Shown: in pieces, positions 16,131 to 38,344 of the stretch
How the letters are laid out: each line of letters begins with the position of its first letter
How positions within the stretch are numbered: the stretch's first letter is position 1
NCBI GenBank assembly: GCA_000310025.1
Contig: FN649749.1
Coordinates: forward strand, 1,401,984 to 1,455,321
Reading direction: 5' to 3'
DNA length: 53,338 nt
Source: Ectocarpus siliculosus
Lineage: Eukaryota > Sar > Phaeophyceae > Ectocarpales > Ectocarpaceae
Program-made: the position numbers and the translations under genes
Notes under the pieces: model-generated
Database searches by the model: none
What the model saw: only the letters and a program-made list of their open reading frames with translations
What the model was told of the DNA's origin: nothing

Positions 16131-16305
16131 CACCCGTCAAGTCACGCGATATAGCCGCGCTTGTACCGTCACGCGATACAAATGCACCTGTACCGACCAC
16201 TTCCCGCTGGCTACAACATCTTGTGGCTTAGCCCACGCGAGCTGGCGACCACGCTTGAAACCCTGAGAAGAAAGCCATGTTCGTGCGGACAGTTTTCGTC
16301 GCTTG
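16131..16305. repeat. Downstream flank shared by both FNIP genes, copy 1
   Basis: Aligns with 33820-33970 at the same position relative to the FNIP gene ends. Shared are gtcacgcgata, ctgtaccgac, acttcccgc, acaacatcttg, acgcgagctgg and gaccacgctt. The similarity shows that the duplication that produced the two genes included at least 150 bp of 3' flank. Confidence 0.8.
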
Positions 16306-16308
16306 CCC

Positions 16309-17748
16309 TCACTCACCGCGCATTTCGGCTGATCGGCTCGCTCGAACGATAGGTCGGTCACGCCTTCCGCAGGTCAGTCTGACCAGGGAATCTGGCCACA
16401 CGACTTCGCCGAGAGGTTGATCGAAGTCGTTGCCAAACCGTAGATGTCGGAGCGTCGCCGGCCACACAACTTGGGCGATGGGCTGATTGAACTTGTTTCC
16501 AAAACTCAGGGATTGAAGGGTGGCCGGCCAAACGGCTCCGGCAACCGGCTGGTTGAAAGCATCCCCGATCTTTAGTCTCTGCAGGGACGCCGGCCACACG
16601 GCTCCGGCAATAGGCTCGTTGAAAACATCTCCGAGCGATAGCTGCTGCAGGGAGGCCGGCCACACGACTTCTTCGATGGGTTGATTGAAGGCCGGGCTCA
16701 AATTCAGCTTAGAAAGGGAAGCTGGCCACACGGCTTCCACGACGGGGTGATTGAACACTAAGCCGAGATGTAGCTCTTCAAGGGAGGCCGGCCACATCGC
16801 TCCGGCAACCGGCTGGTTGAAAGCATCCCCCATCCATAGTCGCTGCAGGGACGCTGGCCACACGGTTCCGACAATAGGCTGGTTGAACGCATCTCCGAGC
16901 GATAGCTGCAGCAGGCAGGTCGGCCACACGGCTCCGGTGATGGGCTGATTAAACCCGCTCTCGCTGGAAAACCATGCCATGAACGATATTTCTTTCAAGG
17001 ACTCTGGCCAAACGACTCTGTCTATGGGCTGGTTGAATCCACTACCGAATTGCAGCATTTGAAGCGATGCCGGCCACACGACCTCAGCGATAGGCTGGTT
17101 GAAGTGTTCGCCAAACCAAAGCTGCTCCAGGGCAACCGGCCACACGACTCCGGCGATGGGCTGATTGAATGTATACCCCAACGCCAGCTGCTTCAGAGAA
17201 CCCGGCCACACAACCCCAACAATCGGCCGGTTAAATGCGTATCCAAACGATAACCGCCGCAGGGAGGCGGGCCACACTACCCCGGCGATGGGCTGGTCAA
17301 ATGTGGATCCGAGCGACAGCTGCTGCAGGGACACTGGCCACACAACTCCAACAATTGGCTGGTTAAACGAGTACCCGAAGGATAGCTCCTGCAGGGAGGA
17401 AGGCCACGAGACTGCGGCGATCGGTTGGTCGAATGTGGGTCCAACAGACAGCTGCTGCAGGGACGCTGGCCACACGACTTCTTCGATGGGTTGATTAAAG
17501 TTGTGGGCAAAAATCAGCCTCTCGAGGGAAGCTGGCCACACTACTTCGGCGATGGGATGGTTGAAGCCACCTTCACCAAAAGGTTTCCTCGTTTCAAACC
17601 GTATCTCTTTCAGGGACTCGGGCCACGTGATGCCGTCAAGGGGCTCATCAAAGAATTCACCCAACGTTAGCTTTTCCAGGGATTCCGGCAACTTGACTTC
17701 TGAACGGGGTTGGCGAACCTCGCTCGAGTAGCTGGCACCCAGGGTCAT
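16309..17748 (-). CDS. FNIP-type repeat protein 1 (19 repeats)
   Basis: Single open frame of 479 codons made almost wholly of 22-residue repeats with consensus F-N-Q-P-I-x-x-V-x-W-P-x-S-L-x-x-L-x-F-G-x-x. This matches the FNIP family (known from Dictyostelium and some giant viruses), a leucine-rich-repeat-like solenoid used for protein binding. An N-terminal cap of about 32 residues precedes 19 repeats. Repeats 1 and 10 carry loop insertions after the Leu/Phe strand, and a divergent tail of about 20 residues ends the protein. No signal peptide, membrane segment or other domain is visible. The chosen start is the first Met in frame; an in-frame stop lies about 75 bp upstream, though a short homologous stretch before the Met suggests an upstream exon or a lost start. 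Function unknown; ligand recognition is inferred from the fold. Confidence 0.88.
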   Translation of the reverse strand: MTLGASYSSEVRQPRSEVKLPESLEKLTLGEFFDEPLDGITWPESLKEIRFETRKPFGEGGFNHPIAEVVWPASLERLIFAHNFNQPIEEVVWPASLQQLSVGPTFDQPIAAVSWPSSLQELSFGYSFNQPIVGVVWPVSLQQLSLGSTFDQPIAGVVWPASLRRLSFGYAFNRPIVGVVWPGSLKQLALGYTFNQPIAGVVWPVALEQLWFGEHFNQPIAEVVWPASLQMLQFGSGFNQPIDRVVWPESLKEISFMAWFSSESGFNQPITGAVWPTCLLQLSLGDAFNQPIVGTVWPASLQRLWMGDAFNQPVAGAMWPASLEELHLGLVFNHPVVEAVWPASLSKLNLSPAFNQPIEEVVWPASLQQLSLGDVFNEPIAGAVWPASLQRLKIGDAFNQPVAGAVWPATLQSLSFGNKFNQPIAQVVWPATLRHLRFGNDFDQPLGEVVWPDSLVRLTCGRRDRPIVRASRSAEMRGE

Positions 17749-18224
17749 GTCTCGAACGGAGTCTTTTCCACAGAACGAAAGACAGGCGATAGAAAACGGT
17801 GGCGATATTTGGAGTTAGTGTCAACATCATAGAACATGTCATAGTGAACAGGAGGCTGGCGACGTGTCAATCGTGAATAGGGCATGTCGAGGGATGGGCT
17901 TCCTAAGGTGGATAGCCTGCTGTGAGGGTAGATATAGCTGAACGGCCGGCAGGGACAGGGCCGAAGCGGAGATTTAGTCGGGGCGAAATGTAAATGCCCT
18001 GCAGGGGGATGGTGTGCCTCAATGTCAACACTGCCGGCTCCGAACGGGTGTGTCTATGGCGGTTGCTGCTTGCAATAAACAGGATGTAGCCTGCATGAGC
18101 TAACCATATTATTGTCGTCAAGTGGAACAATGTTCCCGAGTGCTGAAGTAAGGAGTGCTTTGCCAACTGACCCGGCTAGTACCTGCCGTCGACGGTGAAG
18201 AGCCGCAAGCGTCAGCACGGCCAA
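17749..18224. other. Upstream region of FNIP gene 1
   Basis: The first 45 bp still align with the N-terminal coding part of FNIP gene 2 (the C-I-A-F region and the D-S-V-R segment). Beyond that the two upstream regions are unrelated. No TATA box or other promoter element is clear. Confidence 0.45.
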
Positions 18225-18480
18225 CAGCATACGAAGCACCCCCACGATCCCAACGGCATATTCCGTTTGTGCATGACCGGACGATACTGGCCTCTGTTCG
18301 GGGAGCAGACGGCATAGTTCTTCGTTCTGGCATGATCGGCTTGTGACCCCTCCAATTTTCTCAGCGAAAGTATCAGCCGATCCAGTCAAAATGGGCCCCT
18401 TTTTCTCACTCGCCGACCGGAATCTTTGGAAACGTTCGGGCTGTAAAATTTGGCATTTTCCTCCGCGCAAGTAGCCCAAA
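18225..18480. repeat. Long direct repeat, copy 1
   Basis: Matches 19556-19830 in the same orientation: tttgtgcatgacc, gatactggcctctgtt, gcagacgg and gttctggcacgatcgg type segments in order, then a more diverged part with aatgggcc and gccggaat type blocks. Together the two copies bracket the inverted-repeat element at 18675-19925. Confidence 0.65.
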
Positions 18481-18870
18481 CATCTCTTGAGCCAAGAAAA
18501 TGACTCCCCCCTTACCTAACAAAACAGTAAAAACTCGGCGTGAGAAATCCCCGGAGAGATGCCCAATTAAAAATATCCTCCCAAAAGTCAGGATTCGTCC
18601 ATAAGGCCGGACGTTCTGACGATATTTCCACGGCATCCCGGATTCCAATGCGGAACAGCTTTCATAAGGGTCACGCTGAGTCTTACGGCGTGATTATTTC
18701 GGAGATTTGTTTTTCTCTCGGTCGGGGGGGGGGTGGCCTGCACGGAAAAAATTATCAAGATCCAAACGATCGTCTTACGTTTCCTCGAGGTATATTTTTT
18801 CTGAAGGGAAAAAAGAGGCTGATTCATGTTCTTCTGAGTTACAACGTGCTTCACTACACGGTTTTGGCTC

Positions 18871-19553
18871 GTGTGTGACCAACAAGACACCGAGCGCCCT
18901 ATGTATGGGTCGCCTGCAGAGGGCATGTGTATCATCGCACGCCATTGGCTGCGGTTTCTGGATGTCGTCGGCCAAAGGCCTCTTTCTGATGGCATGCGTT
19001 GTACACTGATCACACTCGACTCGGAGCAAGCGGCAGAAAAAAAAGCAACGTCCAAAAAAGGCAACACCGAACCACACCTCGATTCACGTTTGCAGGCCGT
19101 GTGCAATCAAAACCGGACAATACGCTCTGTTTCTGGGACGCGAGCAGAGGGTATGTGCATTACCACACGCCACTGGCTGCTGTTTGTGGATGTCGTCGGC
19201 CAAAGGCCTCTCTCTGGCATGCGTTTTTGACTGGTCGAGGGTGACACACGGAGCAAACACGCGGCGGAACAAGAACAAAGGCCAAAAAGTCAACACCGCA
19301 ACACACTTTGGTGCACATTTGCAGGCCGTGTGCAATCAAAACTGGACAATACGCTCTGTTTCTGGGACGCGAGCAGAGGGTATGAGTATGACCACACGCC
19401 ATTGGCTGCAGTTTGTGGATGTCGACGGCTTAACGTCTCTCTCTGGCATGCGTTTTGAAGTGGTCACACATGCAGCAGGCGCAAAAACGGCTCTTTTCGG
19501 CCCAAAGACAAGAACGTCAGCAGAGCAATGACCAGGGTTGACGTTTTCGGCCC
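18871..19553. repeat. Tandem repeat, period about 228 bp, three copies
   Basis: Copies begin at 18871, 19099 and 19328, with a partial fourth from 19554. Shared blocks include cgtgtgcaatcaaaac, cgctctgtttctgggacgcg, gcagagggtatg, cacgccattggctgc and ggcatgcgtt. Short frames across copies encode similar peptides, but frames differ between copies and stops interrupt, so coding is unlikely. Confidence 0.85.
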
Positions 19554-19555
19554 TT

Positions 19556-19830
19556 GTGCGGCCAACACGACGCACAACACACCGAATTTTATATGCCTGC
19601 AGAGGGTTTGTGCATGACCTCATGATACTGGCCTCTGTTTGACCAGCAGACGGTGTAGTTCCTCGTTCTGGCACGATCGGGGTGTGACCAGGGGGTACCC
19701 CCCCCCATTTCTAACAGCGATATTCCAACAGGATCGCTGTTGGAAAATGGGCCAATTTTCTAACAGGCCGGCCGGAATCGCTGTTGGAAACTGCGCTGTA
19801 GGATTTTGGGCTGTTGGAAACTGCCATTTT
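19556..19830. repeat. Long direct repeat, copy 2
   Basis: Second copy of 18225-18480, lying inside the right part of the inverted-repeat element. It also carries a local repetition of the word ctgttggaaa (about 19738, 19789 and 19815). Confidence 0.6.
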
Positions 19831-19925
19831 TCTACCCGTAAGACGCCCACATTATTTTTTCGGCTCAGAAATGGACCCCCCCCCCCCAAATCCAATTCGG
19901 AAATAATCACGCCGTAAGACTCAGC

Positions 19926-20947
19926 CTCATTCCAAACAAAGTATTACCTTTCGAATAAATTTCGAAATTTCCCGCTCCCCAAACCGGACAATATGGCATG
20001 GTAATTCGCGTAAGGGCAAATCCCGATAAACGTTTTGGCGCCAACCGTCAGATTCAATTTTCAAATCGAATGAGTGCGGGATGGAGACCCGTCTGGGCTC
20101 GTATCATCGCCGGCATTGGCGGTTTTATGGACAGGATCGCTCTCTAACGCAGGTTCATTCACCGCTAGTAGGATGGGCAGACGGGAGGTTCAAACCGAAT
20201 CACGATACGTTTCACCCACTGCGAACAACAACTGTTACACGATATTTGTTAGCTTCAAAGAGCTGTAAGTCACCCGAGCTGCTACAAGGTAGCGTAAAAA
20301 CTGAAAGTTTCCCTGTGATACTAGTCGATAGCTCCGCCACTATTCGATAACTATTGTTGGGGGTTTGCTTGAAACATCGCGGCGTCGAAGATAGTTTGTG
20401 GAATCAAGGCGAAAATAGTCCGCTCCCTTTCGGCCTGGACACGACCAGGGAACAACCAACCCTTGAAATTTAGGGCATGCGAGCTGACGAAAAGTGTATG
20501 CAAAAGTAGCCCTGTGCTTCAGGATCACACTACCATACAGTTGTTGCTTTCTAGGGAGTTCATCGTCGCGTGCATGCACCGCCGTAGGTAGGTGATTATG
20601 CATCTGCTGAACATTCTGCCACATTTTGGGCATATCGCGACCGAAATTCACGATATCGTGTACCACAATCTATGGGCTGAAATTCAAGAGGTGGTGCACA
20701 AAGGATCCTCAGGTTTTCCTTTCCGGGGGAAAGGCTCCATGCACCTTGGGCGGCGGCGTACGAAACTGCCTAATTAACGGAGGCGCGTTCCTAACCTGCG
20801 CACACATATTTTTAAATACAACGACAGAATCTCGATCCACAGATAAGAATCCGAGATATGTGGGAAACGATTTCAAAGCGTGAGCGCACACTGTTGAGCA
20901 GCATATCGCGACAGTACTAGATGTATAGCATATCTATTATGTATGCT
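19926..20947. other. Intergenic, nothing recognised
   Basis: No gene or shared repeat found. Short frames only. Confidence 0.45.
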
Positions 20948-20982
20948 ACAAGTCAGCGCTGACTTAATCAGCGCTGACTTGT
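20948..20982. repeat. Perfect 15-bp inverted repeat with 5-bp spacer
   Basis: acaagtcagcgctga, spacer cttaa, then the exact reverse complement. Each arm also contains a self-complementary tcagcgctga core, so the site holds two nested palindromes. It may be a protein-binding site, a hairpin or a MITE remnant. Confidence 0.85.
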
Positions 20983-21034
20983 AACATGGTGGATATGGAT
21001 AAGCTGTACATCGAACAGATATCTCCTGTGTGAT

Positions 21035-21167
21035 TAACAGGCTCAACACGACAGTTTGGTGGCCGTCTTGTGCATTTGACTACATGTTATGCGAGGGAGG
21101 TGTAGAAGGAAGGTGTCCGGACGAGGATGCACTTTCGGGTGTGTTTTTTATTAGTTGTTGCACCCTG
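21035..21167 (+). repeat. Dispersed repeat Z, copy 1
   Basis: Matches 38590-38713 in the same orientation: the ggctcaaca type block, the gctgtcttg type block, ggtgtagaag with aaggtgt, and the gcaccctg end. It lies just before copy B of the small inverted-repeat family, so the two may belong to one larger element. Confidence 0.65.
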
Positions 21168-21208
21168 TCGAACAGGCCACAGAAAGCAAATATGTCGTTG
21201 ATGGTAAT

Positions 21209-21408
21209 GATATGGTATCACACACCCTGGACGGATTTCAAAGCACTAGACTACAGCATTACCCCTCAGCAGAAAGAGTGGTGTGGCAAATACGACGATG
21301 TTGGAGCCGTTTCGTCGAGGGCTTTCCGAAAACTCCTCTTCTTGATTGGGGTATCCTCTTCATCGTGGAGTGAGCATTGAAAATCGGGGGTGTGGTATCT
21401 TGTGTCAC
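21209..21408. repeat. Small inverted-repeat (MITE-like) element, copy B
   Basis: Left terminus ggtatcacacaccctgga (from 21214) and right terminus ending with ggtgtggtatcttgtgtcac are inverted copies. The interior, read on the minus strand, contains ggaaagccctcgacgaaacg, matching the interiors of copies A and C. No coding capacity. Confidence 0.7.
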
Positions 21409-24369
21409 CTAATGTGTCACCAGTTTGCTGGCATTGTTGAAGGTAGACGTACGCTGATGGGACAAATACTACACACGTCTGTGGCAGGTATCGCGGTAAG
21501 TGTTGCATCCAGTTGACGGTGCGTATATGCAGGATGGGTGAGGATACACTGTAGGTGGTGCATGCATCTGATCGGCAGATATGGAGCTACACATTCAAAT
21601 CAGACGTACAAACTGTGGGTGTGGCACCGTGCAACATTGGCAAGGTAGTCTAAGGGTAAAGAAGAAAATAAGTAACGTTTGCTCCTCAGCTGGTGGCGCA
21701 TGGCGGTATCGTCACGATGGTGACATCTGGCATGAGTGCGCCGACAGGTGATCGGTGGCAGTTGTAGGCGGACAATTGGCAGTGTGCGCATGTTGGTCGA
21801 GGTAAAACACTTGGTTGTGTAGGAGTCACCAGCTTGCCGGTTTCTCCAAATCCAAGAGGTCGCAGCTGCTACATATATGCATACGAATAAATAATTCCGA
21901 AAAATATGTTTCGGTTGAGATTACCTAACAGCGGGGGCCTAACCGGCTTATCAATGATAACATGTGTTTCGTCCCACCCAATGGTCCCATATGCGCACAT
22001 TTTGGGTGCCACAGCTTACACCGTTCGGAACAAGGCGGGAGACATAGTCTACATTGATTGGTCTGCAGCAAAAGGAAGGTGTAACGGAAAAATCATGTTT
22101 TGCTTCACCCCCGCTTGGAAGTGCGTGTACAACAACAGCAGTCGTTGTTTCTCCCCTCGCCGTGTGCATTTCACGAAACACACACGCGATGTCCGCGACC
22201 AAGTTGCGCGTCTATCACCGTGAAAGGGGATATTCGAAACCACAGACCAGTGTCGAAAGGATGGCGAGGTTTGCAACTGAAACGCCGGGGCGCTGGTTGC
22301 ATGCGGCGTGGCAGCGTCCCGCGAATGTTGCTGTAAGCGTACACACGTTCTCCCCCGCTGTCTTACCTTCAGCGCCTCTGCCTAGCTGGAACAGGAGAGA
22401 GAGCAGCGAAAGCCATGCCGAGGAAACCATTGCCCCCCTCGCCTGGCTGGGCTTGCACTGTGACCTCCTCGGAGAGAGAGAGCGGTGTGGTGGTGGTCGT
22501 AATAAAAAGCCAAGCCAGCAAGCTGCGCAGTGCGGCAAAAGCAAAAGTGGTCGGCGAAAAGCGGTTCCGCGGGGGTCCTGTGGATGAAACTGCTATACAC
22601 CTGTAGACTAGTCTACACACTGTCGAGAACCCGAGAACCGGTTCGCAACAGATGTTACTGCTGTGGAGCTGTAGGATATAGAGCTGAGGAGCGGTACAGT
22701 AGACCGGTGGTACTGTAGAGCTGTGGAGCTGTAGAGCGCCAGAGCAGCAGCCTGGACCATGTTCACGTCCTCACCCCTGGTAGATGTTGCAAACGTTGGG
22801 AATACACGCCCTGTTACCCTGCTGGCGTGCCGCGAACTTTGTCATAACGGTCGATCGGCTCCTTGCTACATGTACTCTGTACTACGGCTACGCTCGTCTG
22901 TCTCCACTGGATGCATCACGTATCATATAGAGGCAAGCTCATGCTGAGGGAGCTTGGGAGTATCAACACCAAGCGGTGTTCGTATACATGTGGTTGTGTC
23001 GAGGCAACTGCACTGTCACTGCAGTCGCTGTACAGCTATCCTCTCAGGTGTAGCTGGCATGTGATGCGAGGTGTAATGTAGGTACATTATGTAGGCACAC
23101 ACGCAGAGTGATTTTATGATCCACACAGACGCCCAACCTATCTTCTTCACCTGACGGTTACAGACTTGGCATCTCCTTCACAGTACTGCATAAACCCATG
23201 CAGTAGAATGGAGTCGTCCTTGTACTGCAAATACTCCAACATGTCCTCTCAAGAACTACGTCATTCTAGTTCAGATACATATTGTAAGGCCTGCAAGTAA
23301 TTCTCTCTCAATGTCCTCTCGAAACAATATCCATGTCCTCTCGAAACAATGCTATCTAAAAGAATTTCCGACCCAATATCGATTACTTCGTAATTGTTTT
23401 ACCTTTCTCAGCTGCATTGCATCAGCAGCGAGTGTTTTCCTTCAACACAAATCTCCCAAATGCTGTTTCAACATGTACACACACATACACCATCTAACCC
23501 TCAAGATATGACGTCTGACTACGAAGAGGGGAGGTAATAAACTCGATTTGTTTCCCTTCGGCAGCGTCTTGACATCTTCACGCCTTCTTGTTCTCGCGCT
23601 GCGATTGCCACCACAGAATTACCATCCATTTTCGACTGCATCATCATGATTCTGTCGACTCCTTCGTCTTGGTCACCTGTTTGTTGTAGTTCAATATTAG
23701 TATTCGCTCAACAGGAATGTTCGGGCAAGTTGGTTGCTGTTAAGAATATTAGCTCGCTCCTTCCGGCGGCAGTCGGCTCCTTCTCCGGCTCCAGAATAAT
23801 ATCAGCTGCAACCCCCCCGTGGTAGTCTTGCTCCCCCCAAGTAATACCCGTGACGCTTGCTACAGCCTCGTCGTTGCAGCGTCCGGGCTCCCATGGCTGG
23901 TACGGATCCTTACTCGGGTTATTCGAGGCTGCCGCTGAATAGAACACTCTGTACCGCTCGAGTGAAGGTCTTCTTGGTCTCTAGGGTCATACTGTAGCCG
24001 TCCTAGGAGATTCTTCGCCGTACGGTATCTCGTACAAGCCAAACTGTGACAGGCGAGGACAATATCATCGGTCAACACCCTGCCCTCCCCCCAATCGCAT
24101 TTATTTCTCCACAACAAACACAGTCCGAAGCAGTTTCCGACCCGCACGCTGTTGCTGACGTTCCTCCGCTGCGATGTTTCCGTCGCTGATGCCCTCCGAC
24201 GCGCTCGGCGAACGATGTTTGACTTTCCACCCCCCACCCTCCTTCTACGCTTTGCTCGTGGAAACTGAGGGTTACGCGCTTCGCCCAACCCCGTGGGCAA
24301 GTGAGGCTTATCCCTTGCGGCCCGTACACCAACTTCCTGCAGATATACCACTCCTTCTCTTTTGAACAT
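21409..24369. other. Intergenic, low-complexity patches only
   Basis: No gene is supportable. 22655-22745 is a degenerate run of gctgtagag and gctgtggag words. The minus-strand frame at 22215-22544 begins with a hydrophobic stretch but has no homology signal or splice support. Near 23318 and 23335 the phrase atgtcctctcgaaacaat is repeated after 17 bp. Confidence 0.45.
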
Positions 24370-24600
24370 GTGTCCCCGTCTGCAGACGTCCCCCCTAGTA
24401 TGTCTTGTCGCGCAGAACTTTCCGAAACACATCCAATGGGCACAAAAACCAAGTTTGCTGTGTTTCCACGCCTACCAGCTATGGCGCAAGCCGGTATTCG
24501 ACCGAAACAAGCATGCAGTTGCCGTTTTTATGTATACCAACATGTTGCCAATTTAGACGGCCTTACGACGGCCGAGAACGAGGGCGTATGTGGATGGGAG
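24370..24600. repeat. Fragment of the foldback-arm family
   Basis: Same orientation as the left arm at 13160-13340: ttgctgtgtttccacg, the cagctatggcgcaagcc type block, cgaccgaaac, tgcagttgccg, acatgttgcc and cgagggc recur in order. It is a solo copy of one arm unit. Confidence 0.65.
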
Positions 24601-25084
24601 AAATAAAGGGAGAATAAAATAGAGAAGAAATGGGGGGGAACAATGAGACAGCGGGGTTGGCAAGGTGGACGAGGAAGATTTCGGCGTGGACAACTATGAA
24701 GGGTTGGCGTATCGTCGGACTCGTGTCTTTTTGAAGAGCTGAAGTCGTAACAGTAGCACAACAAGTTGACGTGCATGTTGTGTCTAGCACGGTTGGGTTG
24801 CTGTGCAACTAATGCTTTGGCAATGGGTGCAAAAAATAATCAAATCAGTCTCAGTTATGTGCAGTTGAACTTAAACATGAATTGTCTCCGATGGAGGAAG
24901 ATGTACCGGCACGTGAAGTATGGTACCGGACACACACATGAGAAAAATATGAGATTTCAAGAGAAATTACCGGAAAGGGAAACAGGGGCACGCACGAAAA
25001 GTACGAAAACGCACTAGAAACGGCAAAGACGCAAGGTAGGGGGAGCGTACGGCGCAAGAGTCTCTTTTTCGCCTTGTGGGGTGA
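24601..25084. other. Intergenic, nothing recognised
   Basis: Short open frames only; may hold a decayed first unit of the tandem repeat that follows. Confidence 0.4.
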
Positions 25085-25840
25085 GCAGTCTAACGTTCGA
25101 GAAGAATATGCCACATTCCATAGTACATGTACAAAATGAAACCTTTGGATGTAGATTTGTAAGTCGGTTCCGACGGAGATGATGTGGGTGGATACCGTAG
25201 GACGGCTGAAGACACAACGGGTGGAGTAAGCGCGGGTTGCTGAAGTTGCTGTAGTGCCGACACCGGTGTTTCAAATGTTCATCACAATTAGAATAGAATG
25301 ATTACAGCAGCGGGTGGGACAGATAGATGTGTTTTTCGTGAAGATAGATGTCGAAGGTTCTGATGCAAAATAATTCAGGGGATGTCTGTCTATCGAAGGG
25401 TGGGGTGCTGTGCTTAGAGCCAATAGCAGTGGATGTCAACGCGGTTGAAGGTGGAAATTTCAGACAGGTGGACACATACGTGTTGTAGTGTTAACAATTT
25501 TTGTGGTGTTTCATGGGAAGATATTTGCTAGCATTCGACGAGCGTGTTCACCTGGGTATGAACGAGCCAACCACAACCTTGGGATGCAGTTATAAACGTC
25601 GGTCCCGATGTGGATGTGCTTGGATTTGTAGGACGGCTGAGAAACAACGGGTGGAGTAGGCGGGTGTCGCGGAAAGTGTTGAAGTGCCGGCATTGGCGCA
25701 CCCAAATATTACGCTTGTGACGATTAGCCTACATATGTAGAAGGCATGATTACCGTTCTAGGTGTGGACAGATGACGAGGGATTTGATACAAATTAACCC
25801 AAACGAAGCCGATTGAAGGCCGGCGTGCGGTGCTCCCATT
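25085..25840. repeat. Tandem repeat, period about 431 bp, two copies
   Basis: ggacggctga is at 25200 and 25631, each followed by acaacgggtggagta, then a gaagtgccg type block, gatta and gacagat segments in the same order. The copies are clearly diverged and non-coding. Confidence 0.65.
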
Positions 25841-25865
25841 CTCCCACACTACTGACAGTTTTCCC

Positions 25866-26345
25866 AAATGACCCATGGCTGCCCCATCACCCATGGGCCG
25901 CCCATGGGCACTTCATGGGCCGCCATGGGTTGCCCATGGGCTACCCATAGGTGACCCATGGGCTGCCCATGGCGCCCATCATGGGCTTAGCATGAGCATG
26001 CTCATCATGGGCTGCCCATGGGCTGCCCATGGGGCCGCCCATGGGCAATGGGCCGCCCATGGGCAGCGCATGGTGAGCACTCACGCGACCTCCCACCGTG
26101 GGCAGCCCATGGGCAGCCCATGGTGGGCACTTACGCAACTGCCCATCATGGGTTTACCCATGGGCTGTCTATGGGCACCCATTGGCACCTTCGCAATCCA
26201 CGGGCAGTGCCCAGTGCCCCGTATTGGGCACTGCCGTGGGCAGCCCATAGGCAACCCATGACGGTCACTCGCGCCCTGAAGCACCCGGCGATCATGGGTA
26301 AATAAAATGTCCATGATGATGGGCTGCCCACGGTCTGGCTGGCGT
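25866..26345. repeat. Array of the palindrome GCCCATGGGC
   Basis: At least six perfect GCCCATGGGC palindromes and several CCCATGGG cores lie within about 300 bp, joined by short degenerate spacers such as tg, ag and cc. Variants (cccatcatggg, cccaccgtggg) continue to about 26345. Peptides read through it (His-Gly-Leu-Pro-Met-like strings on both strands) are by-products of the palindrome. Confidence 0.9.
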
Positions 26346-26439
26346 CGTGGGCACCCACGCACATGCCCCGCAAGGGGTGTCCGCAGGGGCGGCCATGGTG
26401 TAGGGGATTTTCCCCGAATACCGCCGAAACTGCTGCGAA

Positions 26440-28465
26440 TTTCATGGACGGAAGGAGCGAAATTTGTCAGGTCCATTTCCATGTATTGTAGTCCACATCT
26501 TTCACCGACATAGTTTGACCTTGGGCTATCGTGTTGGTTTCGTAGTATTTCCACATTCAGTTATTGAGAATGTTGTGCTACTGAAGTACTCAAAAGGTGG
26601 AGTTTTGGCTCCAGCTGCAAATTTGTTCCCGCGACAAGGAAGCCTCATCGAAGCTGACAGTGAAACATGGTTTGGGCAATGACACCCTGCGACGTATTGT
26701 CTTTGATTCCGTGAACCAAAGGAGACATGCGTGTCGTTGGGACTCGGTGTCGCACCCGAAGTTCCAGGTGTGGGTGCTGGCGGTTTGAGGACAGCACCCA
26801 CGGGGTTAGCGTCGACCGAAGCCGGCGAGGCGAACCTCTCCCGAATGCGTTGAGCGCGAAGCTCTGACAAACGAGCGGCATCGGCAACAGGGTCAGCGGC
26901 ACGAGCACCGTCCGAAGACAGCAGCAGCTGTGTGGCCTGACGGCCAGCTGCCGGGGACCCGAAGGTCGCTACGCGAGGCGATGACACTGGCGAACGCGAA
27001 CGTTCAGAATGCTCAGGGCTCGCCGAAGCGGAGTCCGATGAGCCGACGCTAGATTGAGACATACCGATAAGCGAGGCAAAGCTAAACTGTGGTTGGGACG
27101 AAAGCGCAAAAAACTGCAGCAGCAGCCTAAAGCACCAAACCGCGCCAAAACACAACCAAGCCAGACAACACCGTACGAATAAGCCGACAACGCCAAGTGT
27201 GGTGGTATGCACGCGTGATGAAGTCTGGTTGACCCGTGAAGAAGAACTCACTTGTTGTTACTCTTGTAGAACAGCAGCAGCAGTAGCTGTTGCCTTGGGT
27301 ATCGGTAGGAATGACACCAAGGGGCACAGGATCCTCTGCACAAGCAGGGGCTACTAGATCCTGTCCCCTGCTTTTTATCCTTCCGCGGAGAGTTACATCT
27401 CTCCGCGTCTTCTAGAAGGAACCAAGCTCTTCTATGTTCCGTCTACACATCTGAATCCTATAACACGCACCGTGACTTCGGGAACAGACAGACCTCATTC
27501 TGAATGTCATGGACAAGAAGGAAGGAGTGAAATTCTCACGTTTAGGATTACGACAGTGAAACAGCATGGATTGAGCGAAGTCGGGACCCCGTTTTACACT
27601 ACGACGTGGAACACCGAAAGCCCTGCCTATGAAGGTCGCGGGAGAGAGTACATGAGTGAAATACGATAAGACTGTGTTTGCGTTGGGCTCTCTTCCGTCA
27701 CCTAAACTATACGGTAACATATTGTTTGGGATATCACAGATTTTGACGAAATTTCTCTGTCAGTTCGACCGCGCTATCGCACTACGGAACAATTAGAGTT
27801 TTGTTTCAGGTGCATATTGGTTCTCTCAACGAGTACCCCTTCATGAAGCTGACAGTAAAACATGATTTGGGCAATGAGACCCTGCGATATTATTTCTTTG
27901 ATTCGATCAAACAAGGGATATACGTGTGTCGGAGTCGGAACTCGGTTTCACACCAGAACCTCTGGCGCAGACGGCCCTCGATGTGAATGTCACGGACAAG
28001 AATGAAGGAGTGGAATTCTCAGAGTTTCGACAGTGAAAATTCATGTTCGGGAGGACTCGGGATCCGGCTTCACACCGCAATGTGGCATGCCTATGATGTC
28101 ATCGGCAAGAATTAATGAGTGAATTTCGTCAACGCCGTGTTTCCGTGGAGCTCTCTTCTTGAAAGTCATGATCCTGTTTTCTTGGGGATGTCGCAGAATG
28201 CATCCAACATGTTTACTCTGACTTTGACCACCGTGTGGTGATGCTTCTGAAAACGTAGATTTCAGTTTCAGATGCATATCGGTTCCCTCGACGAGCGACC
28301 CTCCTCGATGCTGACAGTGAAGCAGGTGTTTGGCAACGACGCCCGCGAAACAATGCCTCTGATTCGCTCAAACATAGGCGGGTCGGAGTCGGACCTCAGG
28401 TTCACACCCGGACGTGGGACACCGGAAAGCTTGGCTTTGGAACCATTTACAGGGTCACGGGGATG
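26440..28465. repeat. Tandem array of the 475-bp repeat family
   Basis: Two and a half to three diverged units. Landmarks recur at about 26660, 27850 and 28310 (gaagctgacagtgaaacatg type), at about 26740, 27930 and 28385 (cggagtcggaactcggtttc type), and at about 27805 and 28275 (gcatatcggttccctcgacg type). Allowing for the 709-bp insertion at 26757-27465, spacing is about 450-475 bp. The same family fills the foldback spacer at 13730-14490. No consistent reading frame. Confidence 0.75.
26757..27465 (-). mobile_element. 709-bp insertion with 6-bp target duplication, LTR-like 5' end
   Basis: Inserted into a repeat unit: cgcacc at 26751-26756 and again at 27466-27471, and joining the outer sequences restores the unit at its normal length. 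Read on the minus strand it starts TGTTATAGG, as LTRs start with TG, and has an A/T box ggataaaaag near 27378 overlapping a GC-rich hairpin. It then opens a Ser/Ala/Pro-rich frame with a Met at 27062, running to the insertion end. It ends GGAACTTCG, not CA, and has no terminal inverted repeats or poly(A). Best guess: a 5' fragment of an LTR element (leader plus start of gag) or a non-autonomous derivative. Confidence 0.6.
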
Positions 28466-29029
28466 ACAACCTCGAACCCGCCTCGTCGGGTGTGGTGATG
28501 CAATAGAAGCTCTGGCGGCACGTCGAACCAAAAAATCGCAAAGCAGACCATGGGCGTGAAGTTAACGGCGCACACATGGGGATGTATGAACAAACGTAGG
28601 TTGGAGCGAACACGATCAGCAACGGACCGGCATGTGACAAACGGCGGCGGAAAAGTAATCACATAAAATAGAATGCATAAAATCTGATGTATGTAGTCTA
28701 CCTGGAGCTGCGGTATCCCCGCGCGTGCGGAATATTGACCATATTGCAGCGAAGGAACGGTTCAACTATTCAGGCGTTCAACATTTACGTCGGTGCACGA
28801 ATAATTGTGAATGGGATCTTGTATTTTTCTGTCGAACGGAGGGGGAATGAACGGTGATCGTGGCATTTTCTGTCCGTTCCGTGGTGTGAACAAGGTTGGT
28901 TCGCATGTTCGTTTGGAGGGGGACCTCGCTTGTAAGAGTTGCGGTCGTCATGATTCCTTCGGAGGAATTTCCCGCAAACAGCGACGCTTGTTTGCCATGC
29001 TTCCTCACTGTTGGCACCTGCTCGGGCAG
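28466..29029. other. Region between repeat array and GTPase-like exons
   Basis: Should hold the P-loop exon if the gene were complete, but no GxxxxGK[ST] is encoded on the plus strand. A short plus frame at 28811-29032 contains C-P-F-R-G and C-K-S-C and slightly resembles the small Cys/His frame at 48512-48733. Confidence 0.4.
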
Positions 29030-30560
29030 TAGCGAGGCCGTCAAGCTGGAGTTCATCGACACCATGGGGTTCGACGACGGGGCGAGAGGAGCTTACAGTG
29101 ACGGTGACGAGTTGTGTAGGTATTACGCCCGTAGCGTCCACGCGCCTTACACCTCACTCCCGAGCTTTGTGGAGTCTGGTTATATACATATGGGGAGCAT
29201 TCGTTACCGTCGACAATAACTATGAGCAAAGGTGACGACGGTCCTTGTTGTTTGGTGTGACCATATCAATTCGAACCAAAGGACTGCTGATATTGTTTTG
29301 ATACTGTCCTCCCTCATTACTTCATCCCGTTGAGCGTGTTCAGCTGTCCGAGGAGGGAAGCGTGGCACCGGCCCTGCGCTCACGAAAGAGGACCAATGTT
29401 CTGTAAAGGTTGTGATCGCCCCCGATCACCAGAGAATGACCCATCCTGATAGTGCCAACCAAATTCGATCATGGATGAGACTCGATGTCTCAAGGCTGCC
29501 GTCACTGTCCCGTTGCAGCGATACCGCCTCCAGGAAATTGATGAAGCTTCTGCGTGCGACTTCTAAGCTCGATCTCATCATCTACGCCATGAAAAAGGGC
29601 CGCTGGTCAACCGCGGAGACGGCGTGCTATAAGCTACTCGTGAAGAAGATCGCGAACAGCCTTCGTCACTCCGACGGAGTAGTAGGTACGGAGAAGGGGT
29701 CATTTCGATTGGCCGTGTTTGTCTGTGCCGATCGTGCTTGGAGGATGGTACGCTCGAACTACCTCTGTTGCCTTCTGTCGGAGAAAGAAAGGCTACGCAG
29801 TGAAAACAGGCAGTTTTGCTATACCGTCGCTTGCTTGGCACTGGTTATACTGGCTTGGGAAGAGCGCTATGTCCGTTTTCCACTGGAATAGAGTGAGCGT
29901 GGATTGACGCAATCTCAGCAATCTGTGGAACAAAGATATGGTTATTTCAAACGCTTGCTTAAAATGGAAGTCAGCGCTACCACACGGACTTGCATTTGCC
30001 CCTGCGGCCCCCACAGTAAGCCATGCAGGCATGGGCATATGGCGATTAAATATCCAGACTGACCACGCTTGTATTGTATCCTTCATCACCAGATAAGAAG
30101 ATCCCAGTCTTGCTGGTGATCACGCACTGCGAGAATCCCCCGGAACACCTTCAACATTGGCTACAAGAGCGGGCGGGGGACGCTCACATTCCCGGCAAGA
30201 AGTTCGTCCCAAATGGCAGTAACCATCAGGTTCGACCGGATGCTATACGCTGCTTAAGAATGTTATGTACAGTGGTATATTCAGGATTCCTTGATTTGCT
30301 ACTCCCACCTGGATAGTCGTATTTTGACCTTGGCGGTGTTCCTTGCTATTTTGCCGCCCCTATCTCTGAACCAGGCCCTTAGCAGCGCGGGCTTGGACAA
30401 CGCGCACACGATCTGCACGTCGTTTTTCGTTAAAAACTGTCCACTCAGCCGGCTCCAAGAGTACGTGGACTGCCGAAACATCTCCGTCCAAATCTTACTC
30501 GACTGCTTTGTGGCGCACGCTGTGATGGGATATTTACATAGTACTTCCTCTGTAGCATAA
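29030..30560 (+). CDS. 3' part of a P-loop GTPase-like gene (four exons seen, start missing)
   Basis: Exons 29030-29119, 29519-29685, 30093-30229 and, less surely, 30285-30560 (TAA at the end). Introns are GT-AG and phases match at each join. Exon 1 gives the G3 switch-like FIDTMGFDDGARG (D-x-x-G). Exon 2 gives LDLIIYAMKKG, the usual strand and helix after G3. Exon 3 gives KKIPVLLVITHCEN followed by a tryptophan-containing segment, the G4 position of AIG1/GIMAP-like and related G domains (T-H-C-E in place of T/N-K-x-D). Exon 4 contains a Cys/Leu-rich tail. The P-loop (GxxxxGKS) is not found downstream of the repeat array ending at 28465, so the 5' end is either lost or behind a repeat-filled intron. 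The last intron would be only 55 bp. It would bind and hydrolyse GTP if intact; status as gene or pseudogene is open. Confidence 0.55.
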
Positions 30561-30842
30561 GTCTGGTCCGTTATGTGCGCGTAGTCGTAAGGGTACTTAC
30601 ACGTTGACGTTTAGCCTTTAGTCGGATGCGTTAGAAAGGCAAAGCACATACCAAACCGATTAAAAAAAAAAGAAAAACTCGAAGACTGTGTTAGGCACTA
30701 AATTTAGATCAAAACATGCCCATTTTGGCCCGTTTTGAGAATTTTTCCGAGAACGTTTTTGAGATTTATTTTTATAATTCTTTGAGAATTAATGAGATAA
30801 GTCGTGATTTCCACCCCCCACAAACTATACAAACGATGAATG
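30561..30842. other. Intergenic
   Basis: AT-rich downstream flank of the GTPase-like gene, with an A-run at 30662-30672. Nothing else seen. Confidence 0.4.
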
Positions 30843-30860
30843 ACCCTAACCCTAACCCTT
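30843..30860. repeat. Interstitial telomere-like motif
   Basis: accctaaccctaaccctt, about two and a half units of CCCTAA (TTAGGG on the other strand). Too short to be a telomere; it may mark an old break repair or former subtelomeric DNA. A weak gggttagctttagggtt echo lies near 31278. Confidence 0.7.
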
Positions 30861-30975
30861 ATACGACAAAGAGGCTTTCGCGAGGGCTCACGCCTGGATG
30901 GCAACGAGTCCCAGCGACGGCGAGGACGACTAGTCGACATTTTCCCCCCCGTCACCAACAGACACTTTTTTTTAC

Positions 30976-31330
30976 CCGCAAGTGTCTTGGGCTTTAGTGT
31001 GGCCTCCTCAAGTATCTTGGTTTTAATGTGGAACCCCAAATGTCTTAGTTTTGGTGTGGGGTCACTACTATACTGGTTTGAGTATAGGGGGACGCGACGT
31101 AGGTCGTTGAGTAGAGGGGGGGGGTTTGGGCCCTACTCTGTTGTTTTTTTGCCCCGCAAGTGTATTGGATTTAGTGTGGGACCCCAAAGTGTCTTGAATT
31201 TAGTGTGTGGGTCACTATTATTATGGTTTTAGAATTGGGGACGTGTTATGGATGGTTGAGTCTAGGCGGGGTTAGCTTTAGGGTTGGGGATAATTCTTGT
31301 TTTTGGGGTGGGGTTTAGGCTAGTGCCCCA
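30976..31330. repeat. G/T-rich nested tandem repeat
   Basis: cgcaagtgt at 30976 and 31155 marks a unit of about 179 bp. Each unit contains two or three smaller copies of an aagtgtcttggnttttagtg type module spaced about 20-45 bp, followed by gtgggtcacta and a G-rich tail. It lies next to the telomere-like motif, as telomere-associated repeats often do. Confidence 0.75.
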
Positions 31331-31533
31331 CCTCCCCCTCCCCCTGGAAGTGGGCAAAATATGGCCGTTTTTGGGCCGACTCAATGTTTTCCGGCCGTTC
31401 AGCCGCATGGTTCAAGGACCATCTTTTTCTTGCTAAAAAAACGCCGGAGAACTCAACAAAAAAACGAAAAACAGATCGGACACCGTCAAGGGGGCGCATA
31501 AACCTAACGGACCAGAGTTATGATACAGAGGAA

Positions 31534-31622
31534 GTATGATATCTAACCGTCGGACCACGCACTATCCACTTGTTCCGAGTGGATAGGGTACAATCTTGGC
31601 TTCGTGCGTAGGACTGCTATAC
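31534..31622 (+). repeat. 89-bp direct repeat, copy 1
   Basis: Aligns without length change with 32416-32504: tatgatatct, then gcactatccacttgttccg, ggtacaatcttggcttcgt and taggactgctatac, with only scattered mismatches. The two copies start 882 bp apart and bracket the tandem array at 31626-32245. Confidence 0.85.
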
Positions 31623-31625
31623 CAT

Positions 31626-32245
31626 CCCAGCCTGCATCGACAAGAGTCTCGAACCCATCGTTGTCTCGGCTTGGCTACTCCTTGCATATGTTTTTGTGTT
31701 CGTCTCTCTCCTGAGACTCTCCTTTCTTCTGACTCCGGCCCGCCTACACCAACCTCGGTTTAAGCAAGAATACCGCATCCGTTGTTTCGGCTTGGCCTCT
31801 GCTTCTATTTTTTTTGTGGTTTCCCCCATTTTCCTGTCCTGTGTGTCCTCCAGCGTCAGTTTCGGCACCTTAGTCAGCTCGGCCTGGTTTCTGTTTTATT
31901 TTCTTGTTCTTTTCTTCGATTGGAATTCCTCTTCCTTTGAGTAGAGTCAGGGCCTTAGCCTGCACCCACCTAGGTTCCGATAAGAATACCGAACCCTTCG
32001 TCGTGTCGGCCTGGCTTTTGATTTCGCTTGTACGTCCTTTTCCTTCGATCTTTGACTTTTCAATCATTGTCTCCCCTGCACTAACCCCGGTTTCGGCAAG
32101 AATACCACATCCACTGTTTCGGCTGGGCTTCTGATTTTCTTCGTTATCGTTCCTTCGACCTCTCTTTTAGATTCGTAGCCTCCCCTGCATCAACCCCGGT
32201 TTAGGCAACAATACCGCTTCCGTTGTTTTTTCGGCTTGGCTCATG
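31626..32245 (+). repeat. Degenerate tandem repeat, 107-129 bp period, about six copies
   Basis: The core aaccccggtttaggcaagaa, then taccgcatccgttgtttcgg and cttggcttctg recurs near 31638, 31767, 31870, 31982, 32098 and 32207 in various states of decay, separated by T/C-rich sequence. No consistent frame. Confidence 0.8.
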
Positions 32246-32415
32246 CATTCTTTCGTGCGATTATTAGAGGTTTGGAAGGGGTTTGAAGAGCCGTATCTTC
32301 GACTCACTTTGAGAAATCCCTCTGATGGATCAGAGCCCCGTCGAGGGCTTCCGTGTATCTGCAGCTACGGCCGTCAAGGGTGGTCTACTACTGTACAGTA
32401 GTGGTTTGGGATTTG

Positions 32416-32504
32416 GTATGATATCTGGCTGTTGGAAGACGCACTATCCACTTGTTCCGCGTGGATATGGTACAATCTTGGCTTCGTATGTAGGACTGCT
32501 ATAC
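32416..32504 (+). repeat. 89-bp direct repeat, copy 2
   Basis: Partner of 31534-31622. Just upstream, at 32387-32402, is the 16-bp palindrome actactgtacagtagt, which copy 1 lacks. Confidence 0.85.
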
Positions 32505-33119
32505 GGCCGTTACCGGCGTGTTCCGTCTCATACGCTTTCGTGGCGGTTACATCCACAGTTGCAAGAGTTGGATTTCGCCGTAGAACTTCGGTGAAAGAGG
32601 TAATTGGAGAGAGAACTGTTCTCTCTATGTGCCCCCCCTCCGCCACCCTCTCCTAGATCACCGTGGCAGAGGGGAAAAGCAAAAAGAGGCTACCAAAGAC
32701 GTCAACAATCGTGATCATTTTACACGAGCAGCTGGACCTGCATCCTCTACTTTATACATCAAAACGCTCTCAAAGCTAAAAGCCTTGCCGTCGGTCGTGG
32801 AAGCGTGATGATGGACCTCGATTAATGAATAAATTAAAGTTCGATAGCTTTTGTGCACGGGAGTCATCTGCTGACCACGACGGAAGGCGAGCACTTCTGG
32901 GAAATAGAAATTGTTCGATCCTACGTCCCTCACGATACCGTAACCGTCCTGCCTAGTGCACTCTCTGCAACAGAAGCAAATTGTTTCCGAACTGTTCGGT
33001 GTTAGATCTGAATATCTTGGGGCTCAATTTCTTGCGGCGCCTACTGCATCGTGAGTTGAGGCCAACAACCAGACGTTTAGCTGGTGACACTGGAGGAAGG
33101 TTTTAGTATATCATTTTTC
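32505..33119. other. Intergenic, nothing recognised
   Basis: No gene or shared repeat seen on either strand. Confidence 0.45.
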
Positions 33120-33362
33120 TGTAATGATATTTACGACACCGGTGTAGTTTACCATACCGCACAAAATGCTTGGAAACTATGTACATTACCGGCTCTCCGC
33201 TGTCGCGCAAGCCCTCGTTCGTCCCACGTATGGACCTATTTTGCACCACGGAGCGTTGAGATTTTGGCACCGCCGAGGGTTCGGGTGTCGGACAAGTACA
33301 ACAATCCCTGAAAACAGAGATGTTGGACTAATACAACAATCCGTGAAAATACAGAATTTCCT
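33120..33362. repeat. Fragment related to the foldback-arm family with a 35-bp tandem
   Basis: 33195-33230 (ctgtcgcgcaag, ctcgttcgtccca) matches 12429-12460, and tatttacgacaccg near 33130 echoes the arm sequence at 12975. 33286-33318 and 33321-33353 are two diverged tandem copies sharing tacaacaatcc and tgaaaa. Confidence 0.5.
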
Positions 33363-33819
33363 CGCGTCGCACCCGGGAGGTACTTCACCCGATCCCCACA
33401 AGGCAGCCTGGTGAACATGTCTATACCATGGTATATGTATCCTCGTGGCGAGGCGACAGAGAAGTTAGTCGATTATGGCAGGATACCTCACACCCCACGC
33501 ATCCGTCGGGATGATCGCCCGCAAAATACGGCCCGCAACAAGCGTTCACTTTCCTACAGATCGGCCAAACCAAAACGTCACGAACCTGCCAGAAGTAATC
33601 AACTAAACTGACCAACCAAGCCGGTGCCACCTGCTGCGTACGAGGGGGCAATTTGACCCACGTCGAGAAAACGGCGACTGTCCCACAGAAACATCTACAG
33701 TAAGGTTGACTCACGACAAGAGTCACGCTGCGTGCTCCTCTAATCACGCTGCAGCCTGTTCTCTGACCACCAGCACAACTTCCCTGTCCGCTGTGTGGCT
33801 TAACATACGGCCACTTATA
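33363..33819. other. Intergenic
   Basis: Nothing recognised except short open frames. Confidence 0.4.
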
Positions 33820-33970
33820 CTTCCCGTGTCACCCTGCGAGTCACGCGATACAGCGACGCCTGTCTACCGACAACTTCCCGCCAGTGACAACATCTTGACG
33901 CTTAGCTCACGCGAGCTGGTGACCACGCTTAGAATAAGCAATTTGCGTCGGATAGCTTCCGTCCCTCGCA
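33820..33970. repeat. Downstream flank shared by both FNIP genes, copy 2
   Basis: Counterpart of 16131-16305, placed immediately 3' of FNIP gene 2 just as the other copy sits 3' of gene 1. Confidence 0.8.
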
Positions 33971-33971
33971 C

Positions 33972-36258
33972 TCACTCAACTTTCAGTACCATGGATGGGC
34001 CTTCTAGAACGAAAGGTTGGGGAAATGTCCCCCAAGTTAGACTGACCAGCGAGTCTGGCCACACGACTTCGCCGAGAGGTAGATCAATGTCGCTCCCAAA
34101 ATGCAGCTTTCGAAGGGTCCCCGGCCATACAACTTCGATGATGGGCTGATTGAAGTTGGCTCCCATACTCAGGGTTTCAAGGTAGGACGGCCACACGACT
34201 TCGGTGATGGGCTGATTGAAGTTGCTTCCGAAAGTCAGGGTTTGAAGGGACGTCGGCCACACAACTTCGGTGATAGGTTGGTTGAAGTCTCTCCCAAAAC
34301 GAAGCTCTTGAAGTGACGTCGGCCACACAGTTCCCGCGATGGCCTGGTTAAATAACGGCCCTAACGATAGCTGCTGCAGCGAGGCTGGCCAAACGACCCC
34401 GGCGATGGGTTGGTTAAAGGCGGGGCTCAAATTCAACGTGGTAAGGGAGGCTGGCCAATCGACCCCGGCGATAGGCTGGTTGAATGTAGACCCGAAGAAT
34501 AGCTGCTGCAGCGAGGACGGCCAGATGACCTCGGCGATAGGCTGGTTGAATGTAAACCCTAAAGATAGCTGCTGCAGCGAGGCCGGCCAAATGACGTCAG
34601 CGATAGGCTGGTTGAATTGCGTCCCGAACGATAACTGTCGCAGCGATGTTGGCCACGCGACCTCAGCGATAGGCTGGTTGAAGTCAGCACCATACGGCCC
34701 AAACGACAGCTGCTGCAGCGAGGCTGGCCAATCAACCCCTTCAATGGGTTGATTGAATGTGCCCCCGAAGGACAGTTGTTGCAGGGAGACCGGCCAAGCG
34801 ACTCCAACAATAGGTTGGTTGAATTTCGTCCCGAACCATAGCTGCTGCAGGGAGGCCGGCCATGCGACCTTGGCGATGGGCTGGTTGAATTCAGACCCAA
34901 GCACCTCAAATGATTGCTGTCGAGAAGCTTCGGGGGTGACCTTGTCGAATCCGAACGATAGCTGAGTTAGGGAGGCCGGCCAGACGACCTCTTCGATGGG
35001 CTGATTGAATGTGCTCCCGAAGGCCAGTTGTTGCAAGAAGACCGGCCACACGACTCCGGCGATGGGCTGGTTGCATGAGTACCCTAACGACAGCTGCTGC
35101 AAGGAGGCCGGCCACTCGACTCCGATGATGGGTTGGTTGAACTCCATAGCGAACGACAGCTGTTCCAGGGAGGCCGGCCACGAAACTTTAAGGACGGGCT
35201 GATTTAAAGCGTATTCCGAAGCTCAGCTGCCGCAGTGACGCTGGCCACACAACCTCTTCGATGGGTTGATTGAATGTGCTCCCGAAGGACAGTTGTTGCA
35301 AGGAAACCGGCCAAGTGACTCCACCAATGGGGTGGTTGAATGAGTACCCCAACGACAGCTGCTTCAGGGAGGCCGGCCACACGACTTCTTCGATGGGCTG
35401 GTGAAATGCTCCGAAGGACAGATGCTGCAGCGAGGCTGGCCAAACGACGCGGTCGATGGGCTGGCTGAATGTCCCGAAGGATAGCTGTTGCAGCGAGGCT
35501 GGCCAAACAACGTCGGAGATAGGCTGGTTGAATCTTACCAACTTTAGCTTTTCAAGAGACGCTGGCCACTCGACTCCTTCGATGGGCTGGTTGAACTGAT
35601 GCCCGAACGACAGCTGCTGCAGCGACGCTGGCCACTTGACTCCGATGATGGGCTGGTTGAATGAGTACCCCAACGACAGTTGCTGTAGCAAAGCCGGCCA
35701 AACGACTTCAGCGATGGGCTCATTGAAATCGGTTCCCAACGAAAGCCGGTGCAGCGAGGCTGGCAACATGACCTCGGCGATTGGCTGGTTGAATCTCGTT
35801 CCGAACGACAGCTGTTGCAGGGAGGCCGGCCACACGACTTCTTCGACGCACTTGTTAAATGAATTACCGAACGACAGCTGCCGCAAGGAGGTCGGCCACG
35901 TGACATCCACGATGGGTTGGTTAAAACCATCGCCAAAAGCCAGAACTTCAAGGGAGGCAGGCCACGTGACACCAGCGATGGGTTGGTTGAAACCACGTCT
36001 TGTCTGAGAATAGTAGGTGTCGAGTTCGTCGATGTTGTTGAACCGTATCTCCTTCAAGGACTCGGGCCATAAGATGCCGTCCATGGGTTGGTTGAAGAAT
36101 TTGCCAAAAGTCAGCTGTTCCAGGGAATCCGGCAGCTTGACTTCGGAGATGGGCTGGTCAACCTCGCTCAGATAGCTGGGACCCAGGGTCATCTCTCGAA
36201 CCGAGTCTGTTGCGCGGAACGCAATACAAGCGGGCATACTTAGATCTTTTTCAGTCAT
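33972..36258 (-). pseudogene. FNIP-type repeat protein 2 (about 30 repeats), split by a one-base frameshift
   Basis: Two frames, 36258-35188 (356 codons) and 35205-33972, read as one repeat protein of about 760 residues. The N-terminal cap extends 22 residues beyond that of gene 1 and starts at a good ATG (36258). The first part holds 13 whole 22-residue F-N-Q-P-I...W-P repeats, the break falls inside repeat 14, and the second part holds 16 more. Three repeats in part one are 21 residues and a few carry loop insertions, including 18 extra residues after repeat 3 of part two. The break is one additional A in the A-run at 35206-35208 (minus-strand reading), giving TAA at 35190-35188. Fold and inferred role are as for gene 1. 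Because every other codon is intact, the frameshift is either very young or an assembly error. Confidence 0.88.
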
Positions 36259-38340: not shown

Positions 38341-38344
38341 GCAC

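Follow-up and report, generated by a model that had tools for sequence, protein, structure and literature searches.

Two FNIP-repeat genes, both on the minus strand, are present in a 53,338-nt stretch of the Ectocarpus siliculosus genome (contig FN649749.1, positions 1,401,984 to 1,455,321 of the forward strand; hereafter the window, to which all coordinates refer). Gene 1 contains a single intact open reading frame (ORF) of 479 aa from its ATG (16309-17748). Its repeat exon (16309-17762), delimited by ORF, Pfam matches, repeats, structural model and splice acceptor, comprises an N-terminal cap (N-cap), 19 complete repeats and a terminal repeat with tail, and probably starts at 17762, at an AG|ACTC acceptor. 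Gene 2 is divided between two ORFs, a 356-aa N-terminal piece (35188-36258) with the N-cap, 13 whole repeats and one repeat running out of frame, and a 391-aa C-terminal piece (33972-35147) with 16 whole repeats, an NLSPA motif and a terminal WPDSLV repeat. As the gene 2 exon probably begins at 36206, the first 17 codons of ORF 35188-36258 would be intronic. The downstream frame is open to 35222 and the upstream frame ends at 35188, which places a one-base frame change within a single repeat, in the overlap of the two open frames (35188-35222). The repeat total of gene 2 is 31 (13 whole, one broken, 16 whole and one terminal).

An initial annotation, made from the letters of the window, had assigned 19 and about 30 repeats to two paralogues at these coordinates. 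Both locations and the gene 1 count agree with our results, and the gene 2 total is close, but that annotation missed the frame change, and because gene 2 consists of two ORFs, neither frame by itself contains about 30 repeats. The landmarks it had described were recovered, including a common N-cap (39 of 51 aa identical over MTLG...KEIRF), an early repeat with a long loop (repeat 2 in both genes, 29 and 35 aa), NLSPA and WPDSLV, with five versus six units following NLSPA. Across both genes, 40 of the 48 non-terminal whole units are 22 aa long. A degenerate DNA pattern for FNQPIxxVxWP matched 26 times in the window, always within the two genes (26/26), whereas 100 dinucleotide-preserving shuffles averaged 0.00 matches. 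A profile built from the 40 full-length units matched only the three ORF segments, and no further FNIP repeats were identified in the window, the profile's next matches having E values of 0.27 and 0.79.

Both genes are genuine members of the known FNIP family, one of them broken. All three ORFs lie far above the Pfam cut-off for FNIP (PF05725), with E values of 2e-80 for gene 1 and of 7.3e-65 and 1.5e-78 for the N- and C-terminal pieces of gene 2, and scores of 265 bits for gene 1 and of 259 and 215 bits among the two pieces of gene 2, where the cut-off is 21; the matches comprise 13, 11 and 8 stretches. The family has many members in brown algae, slime moulds and giant viruses. Two further Pfam families that marginally exceeded their cut-offs on the repeat sequence, DUF7182 (27.9 versus 27) and Toxin_GhoT_OrtT (22.4 versus 22.1), had no passing stretch and were discarded as spurious. 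A phmmer search of the PDB with gene 1 (E up to 0.001) retrieved only the viral proteins Crov588 (6nyr, 1.2e-146) and Crov539 (7zal, 1.7e-76). No relatives were found in three IMG/VR scans (one by exact DNA pattern), one prokaryote scan and a phage collection.

Unit statistics were derived from the 40 full-length units, with eight off-length and three terminal or broken units dropped. They follow the 22-residue turn of the FNIP type, typified by FN and a C-terminal [I/L/W]P: P20 is invariant (40/40) and W19 (39/40), P13 (38/40), F10 (38/40) and N11 (35/40) are nearly so, while position 3 is Q in 22 of the 40. The pairing of Trp19 with Pro13 assigns the units to the Crov539 (Trp) class, which is characterized by this pairing in Huyton et al. 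(2022; PMC9525666). The Trp-Pro in place of Ile-Pro that the initial annotation had singled out is conserved in both genes; published work, however, already gives it as the rule both for the Crov539 class and for the brown-algal proteins. The same paper counts 104 brown-algal sequences (organism printed as 'Endocarpus'), most of which carry WP. The two genes share with the Crov539/Crov527 class (PDB 7zal) the consensus LxxLxFGxxFNQPIxxVxWPxx, Pro13 with Trp19 and the lack of a visible enzymatic domain. They differ from it in having 20 and about 31 repeats rather than 12, length variants at positions 8-9, a probable signal-peptide exon with intron, and a retroelement-rich setting. Crov588 (PDB 6nyr), a closed ring of 25 repeats, has the 22-residue turn, the FGxxFN motif and a similar model shape in common with the algal genes, but carries LP instead of WP, and its His/Tyr ladder is absent from them. 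Brown-algal FNIP proteins of Saccharina and Ectocarpus, compared by description only, share the domain and the WP sub-motif and very probably belong to the same family; 121 FNIP proteins are given for Saccharina japonica (PMC4421812). Among the papers listed on FNIP in brown algae and on FGxxFN proteins, none was a study of function in algae. Among 10 listed of 26,095 on FNIP together with signal peptides or secretion, one mentions FNIP, a fungal secretome paper that names an F-box and FNIP protein (PMC3948071).

Structure prediction agreed with the solenoid fold proposed by the initial annotation. The gene 1 model, built on an alignment of three rows all taken from the window, contains 20 evenly spaced short strands, with a mean predicted local distance difference test score (pLDDT) of 84.9 and a predicted template modelling score (pTM) of 0.82. 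The C-terminal piece of gene 2, modelled alone, reached a pLDDT of 76.1 and a pTM of 0.77, its long loop (residues 68-84) scoring below 50. Foldseek ranked 6nyr_B and 6nyr_A (Crov588) and 7zal (Crov539) as the top three PDB rows for each model, and a model superposed on Crov588 with a root-mean-square deviation of 3.7 over 471 columns. The strands begin at unit position 3. According to Huyton et al. (PMC9525666), positions 3 and 5 point to the concave side and positions 8-9 lie at its edge, and the curvature amounts to 12 degrees per repeat, at which gene 1 would span about 240 degrees and gene 2, if unbroken, slightly more than a full turn.

Paralogy of the two genes, as previously annotated, was corroborated by conserved end anchors, homologous 3' flanks and a probable common first exon described below. 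In addition to the N-cap, NLSPA and the C-terminal units, they share their 3' flanks (16168-16308 in gene 1 and 33840-33971 in gene 2, minus strand; blastn, 141 columns, 74.5% identity, E 1.5e-22). Over the 127 codons of the end anchors, the rates of synonymous (dS) and nonsynonymous (dN) substitution between the genes are 0.76 and 0.15. Homogenisation of the repeats was considered and rejected, as mean unit identity within gene 1 (0.639) and gene 2 (0.658) is about the same as between them (0.640) and barely drops with spacing. Within gene 1, the best blocks of two, three and four units were reached in 2, 6 and 21 of 200 order shuffles, and within gene 2 in 4, 28 and 8 of 200, which provides moderate evidence for block duplication. 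Repeat number has probably been altered by duplication of short blocks, with the ends of the arrays kept fixed.

Variation among the units is focused on one loop. Entropy is highest at positions 8 and 9 (3.53 and 3.48 bits), which are also the most variable repeat positions given for FGxxFN leucine-rich repeat (LRR) proteins (PMC9525666), followed by positions 3 and 5 (2.22 and 2.51); it averages 1.75 bits over positions 12, 15, 16, 18, 21 and 22 and 0.57 over the core. The eight off-length units among the 48 (21, 21, 21, 25, 28, 29, 35 and 40 aa) all differ between the strand and F10 (8/8). In ORF 35188-36258, the three consecutive units 9-11 have 21 residues each, all of them lacking one residue in the same loop. 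Over the 780 pairs of full-length units, the proportions of differing synonymous (pS) and nonsynonymous (pN) sites are 0.641 and 0.264 and dN/dS is 0.22, with similar values within gene 1 (0.23) and gene 2 (0.24), and neither gene shows any sign of long decay. The values for positions 8 and 9 are 1.05 and 1.08 times mean pS; they neither demonstrate nor rule out diversifying selection because synonymous sites, at a pS of 0.64, are near saturation. In seven comparisons of young blocks, pN/pS is 0.81 in the youngest gene 1 block pair and 0.21-0.56 in the other six. The changeable surface with variation at a few positions that the initial annotation had suggested is borne out as regards residue and length variation at the 8-9 loop; selection on that surface is putative, with an overall dN/dS of about 0.2.

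The sequenced form of gene 2 represents either a pseudogene of recent date, a gene that has been truncated, or an error in the sequence. Its dN/dS equals that of gene 1 and the lesion is single, which indicates that the break is either recent or an error. Programmed frameshifting was considered, but no in-phase slippery site of canonical type was visible by eye. That the gene is intact in the organism and the frame change arose in sequencing or assembly is plausible, if not the reading we would favour: it is supported by a single lesion among about 31 repeats and by constraint that is not relaxed, whereas nothing in the sequence itself points to an error.

Upstream of each repeat exon, a probable first exon of 64 bases was identified on the minus strand, in gene 1 at 22367-22430 (ATG to a GAAG|GTAAG donor) and in gene 2 at 44808-44871 (ATG to a GAAG|GTGAG donor). 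Both end in phase 1 and encode a signal-peptide-like sequence. The 5' similarity of the repeat exons starts at 17788 in gene 1 and at 36232 in gene 2 and includes a common AG|ACTCxGTTCGAGA acceptor. When the upstream regions (17790-30000 versus 36234-49000) were compared at the DNA level with high sensitivity, four matches at E <=0.01 were obtained, whereas none of 30 shuffled pairs gave any. Two of the matches agree in strand and order, and two, near 21.2-21.4 and 42.9-43.1 kb, are in opposite orientation. One same-strand match is a conserved element of the presumed introns, described further below; the other (22362-22444 and 44803-44885, E 6.5e-5) contains the exon in both genes, with its ATG, hydrophobic stretch and donor. 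Identity is 67% over the 64 bases from ATG to donor and 57% over the preceding 14 bases, and falls to 40% in the 20 bases after the donor and to 14% beyond. Joined in phase 1 to the acceptor, the exons would encode MVSSAWLSLLSLLFQLGRGAE-DSVRDMTLG... in gene 1 and MMFKVWLSPLLLLVQGGMGAE-DSVREMTLG... in gene 2, with the junction peptides ...GRGAE-DSVRDMTLG and ...GMGAE-DSVREMTLG. Scanning each side for ATG-initiated hydrophobic exons with a GTRAG donor in phase 1 left two candidates per side, those on the gene 2 side being two starts with one donor; the pair scored 50, a value reached in none of 300 shuffles (maximum 4). That the upstream matches are due to chance was considered and is overturned by the DNA comparison and the exon anatomy. 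We regard splicing of this first exon to the repeat exon as highly probable in both genes, judging from sequence features. The initial annotation's treatment of 16309-17748 and 33972-36258 as whole genes would accordingly not hold, as both probably begin in an exon outside these coordinates.

Several observations weigh against the explanation that we favour below. The criteria of the exon scan were chosen after the pair had been seen, so its shuffle control is not independent. The hydropathy maxima of the exons (1.85 and 1.87) are moderate, and 3 of 70 and 5 of 63 open upstream ATGs reach 1.9. Protein-level upstream matches are within chance, the best E being equalled in 8 of 40 shuffles and the third best in 5 of 40. 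The differences between the exons at the three codon positions (6, 7 and 9) show no synonymous bias, and dispersed repeats are common in the window. The implied introns of 4604 (gene 1) and 8601 bases (gene 2) far exceed the mean of 1,057 bases stated for Saccharina japonica (PMC4421812). A conserved order of middle repeats between the genes is also unsupported, the best blocks of two, three and four units being reached in 80, 183 and 99 of 200 shuffles.

Taken together, we consider it moderately probable that the window carries two diverged Trp-Pro (Crov539-like) FNIP/FGxxFN LRR paralogues of the brown-algal nuclear genome, each with a signal-peptide exon, encoding a secreted, ligand-binding solenoid. 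In each gene, a short first exon for the signal peptide would be separated by a long intron in phase 1 from a single large exon that contains the entire solenoid. When intact, the product would be exported and fold as an open LRR-like arc of 22-residue turns, in which conserved residues (L, F, I, V and W) would build the core and the concave strand and the loop at positions 8-9 would provide a variable putative binding face. Inspection by eye revealed no hydrophobic anchor in the C-terminal tails, so that the product would be a soluble secreted protein if the coding sequence ends there; additional 3' exons are possible, as both genes have a donor-like GTGAG at their stop codon. To our knowledge, no ligand of FNIP proteins is known, and the solved members are cytoplasmic viral proteins. 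We hypothesize that the algal product binds an extracellular ligand or matrix component, most likely without enzymatic activity of its own.

This hypothesis has to be weighed against an intracellular scaffold translated from the ATGs at 17748 and 36258 and acting in the cytosol, as proposed for the CroV proteins. The repeat ORFs do open with ATG and lack a hydrophobic start by eye, and the viral relatives are described as cytoplasmic (PMC9525666). However, the two ATGs do not correspond to each other, as similarity starts 26 bases past that of gene 2 and 40 bases before that of gene 1, and the common first exon fits both genes in phase, which makes cytosolic action unlikely. An origin as endogenous viral genes, decaying relics of a CroV-like giant virus, would account for the CroV proteins being the best solved relatives and for the frame change in gene 2. 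It would also fit reports that CroV FNIP is closest to Saccharina FNIP (PMC4421812) and that an Ectocarpus clone carries an FNIP pseudogene amid viral fragments (PMC2373305). Such an origin is nevertheless very improbable, as neither the IMG/VR scans nor the phage collection contained a relative, the scanned frames hold retroelements but no viral domain, and gene 1 is intact, constrained and, like gene 2, probably interrupted by a long intron.

A special case of secreted, ligand-binding paralogues is a variable recognition repertoire, in which the 8-9 loops and repeat number would be under diversifying selection in algal defence or self-recognition. The entropy at positions 8-9, the confinement of all off-length differences to that loop, the pN/pS of the youngest gene 1 block pair and the large ligand repertoire suggested by Huyton et al. 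(PMC9525666) argue for it. The overall dN/dS, the ratios of 1.05 and 1.08 to a near-saturated pS and the lower values of the six other young comparisons argue against it, and we consider diversifying selection of this kind unlikely, although a recognition role of both proteins is permitted by the data. Still more speculative, and in our judgement distinctly unlikely, is the broader proposal that a family shared with giant viruses has turned into a secreted, variable brown-algal recognition repertoire. In it, a phase-1 signal-peptide exon would be joined to a single exon with fixed caps, a middle whose repeat number and order shift through block duplication, and an 8-9 loop variable in residue and in length (21-40 residues per turn). 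Such a repertoire, built on a different repeat, would be analogous to the VLR proteins of lampreys or the apoplastic LRR proteins of plants, and would have its counterpart in the LRR-ROCO proteins with their shuffled exons. In these candidate immune receptors of brown algae, each LRR is encoded by its own exon and followed by a ROC-COR domain (PMC11378527). Like them, both FNIP genes contain leucine-rich repeats with turnover, but their repeats share one exon (in gene 1 all in one frame), and no ROC-COR domain was found in the frames scanned.

For the secreted, ligand-binding paralogues that we favour, the first exon with its signal peptide is the probable new trait in an otherwise known family. 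If these exons are real, the algal FNIP branch would be secreted, unlike the viral proteins, ligands would have to be sought in the wall, the matrix or surface microbes, and the recognition idea could be addressed with secretome and population data. Without them, the window would add two members, one broken, to a family in print since 2008-2015.

The presumed introns of both genes contain a further conserved element on the minus strand (21018-21116 in gene 1 and 38572-38669 in gene 2; 99 columns, 72.7% identity, E 8.6e-12), which has only two copies in the window and includes a pyrimidine-rich stretch and CAG. It may represent an intronic regulator, a lost exon or a repeat; we do not call it an exon, as stops interrupt the frame of the gene 1 copy over the part inspected. 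Outside the genes, six-frame Pfam scans of 3500-16000 (minus strand to 16202), 18000-32999 and 36300-49500 identified no domain, and the flanking stretches 1-3500 and 49500-53338 were scanned on the plus strand; tRNA and Rfam searches returned none. The plus strand at 293-2519 contains a LINE-like relic with a reverse transcriptase (approximately 1977-2519, 83 bits) and endonuclease matches in two frames (approximately 293-424 and 495-965), both below the Pfam cut-off. At the opposite end, a copia-like element (49767-53338, plus strand) encodes Pol_BBD (approximately 51072-51314) and, in another frame, an integrase core (approximately 52427-52720), and reaches the end of the window. These retroelements, together with the WP class of the repeats, suggest the nuclear genome of a brown alga. 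Furthermore, the window contains an inverted pair of about 565 bases with 76% identity (12974-13538 and 14532-15076), a dispersed repeat family with several copies of 65-73% identity (12.4-15.1 kb and 24.0-28.4 kb), a tandem array of 2.4 copies of a 229-base unit (18916-19456) and an array of a palindromic CCCATGGG-like unit with a period of 11-12 or 22 (25888-26123).

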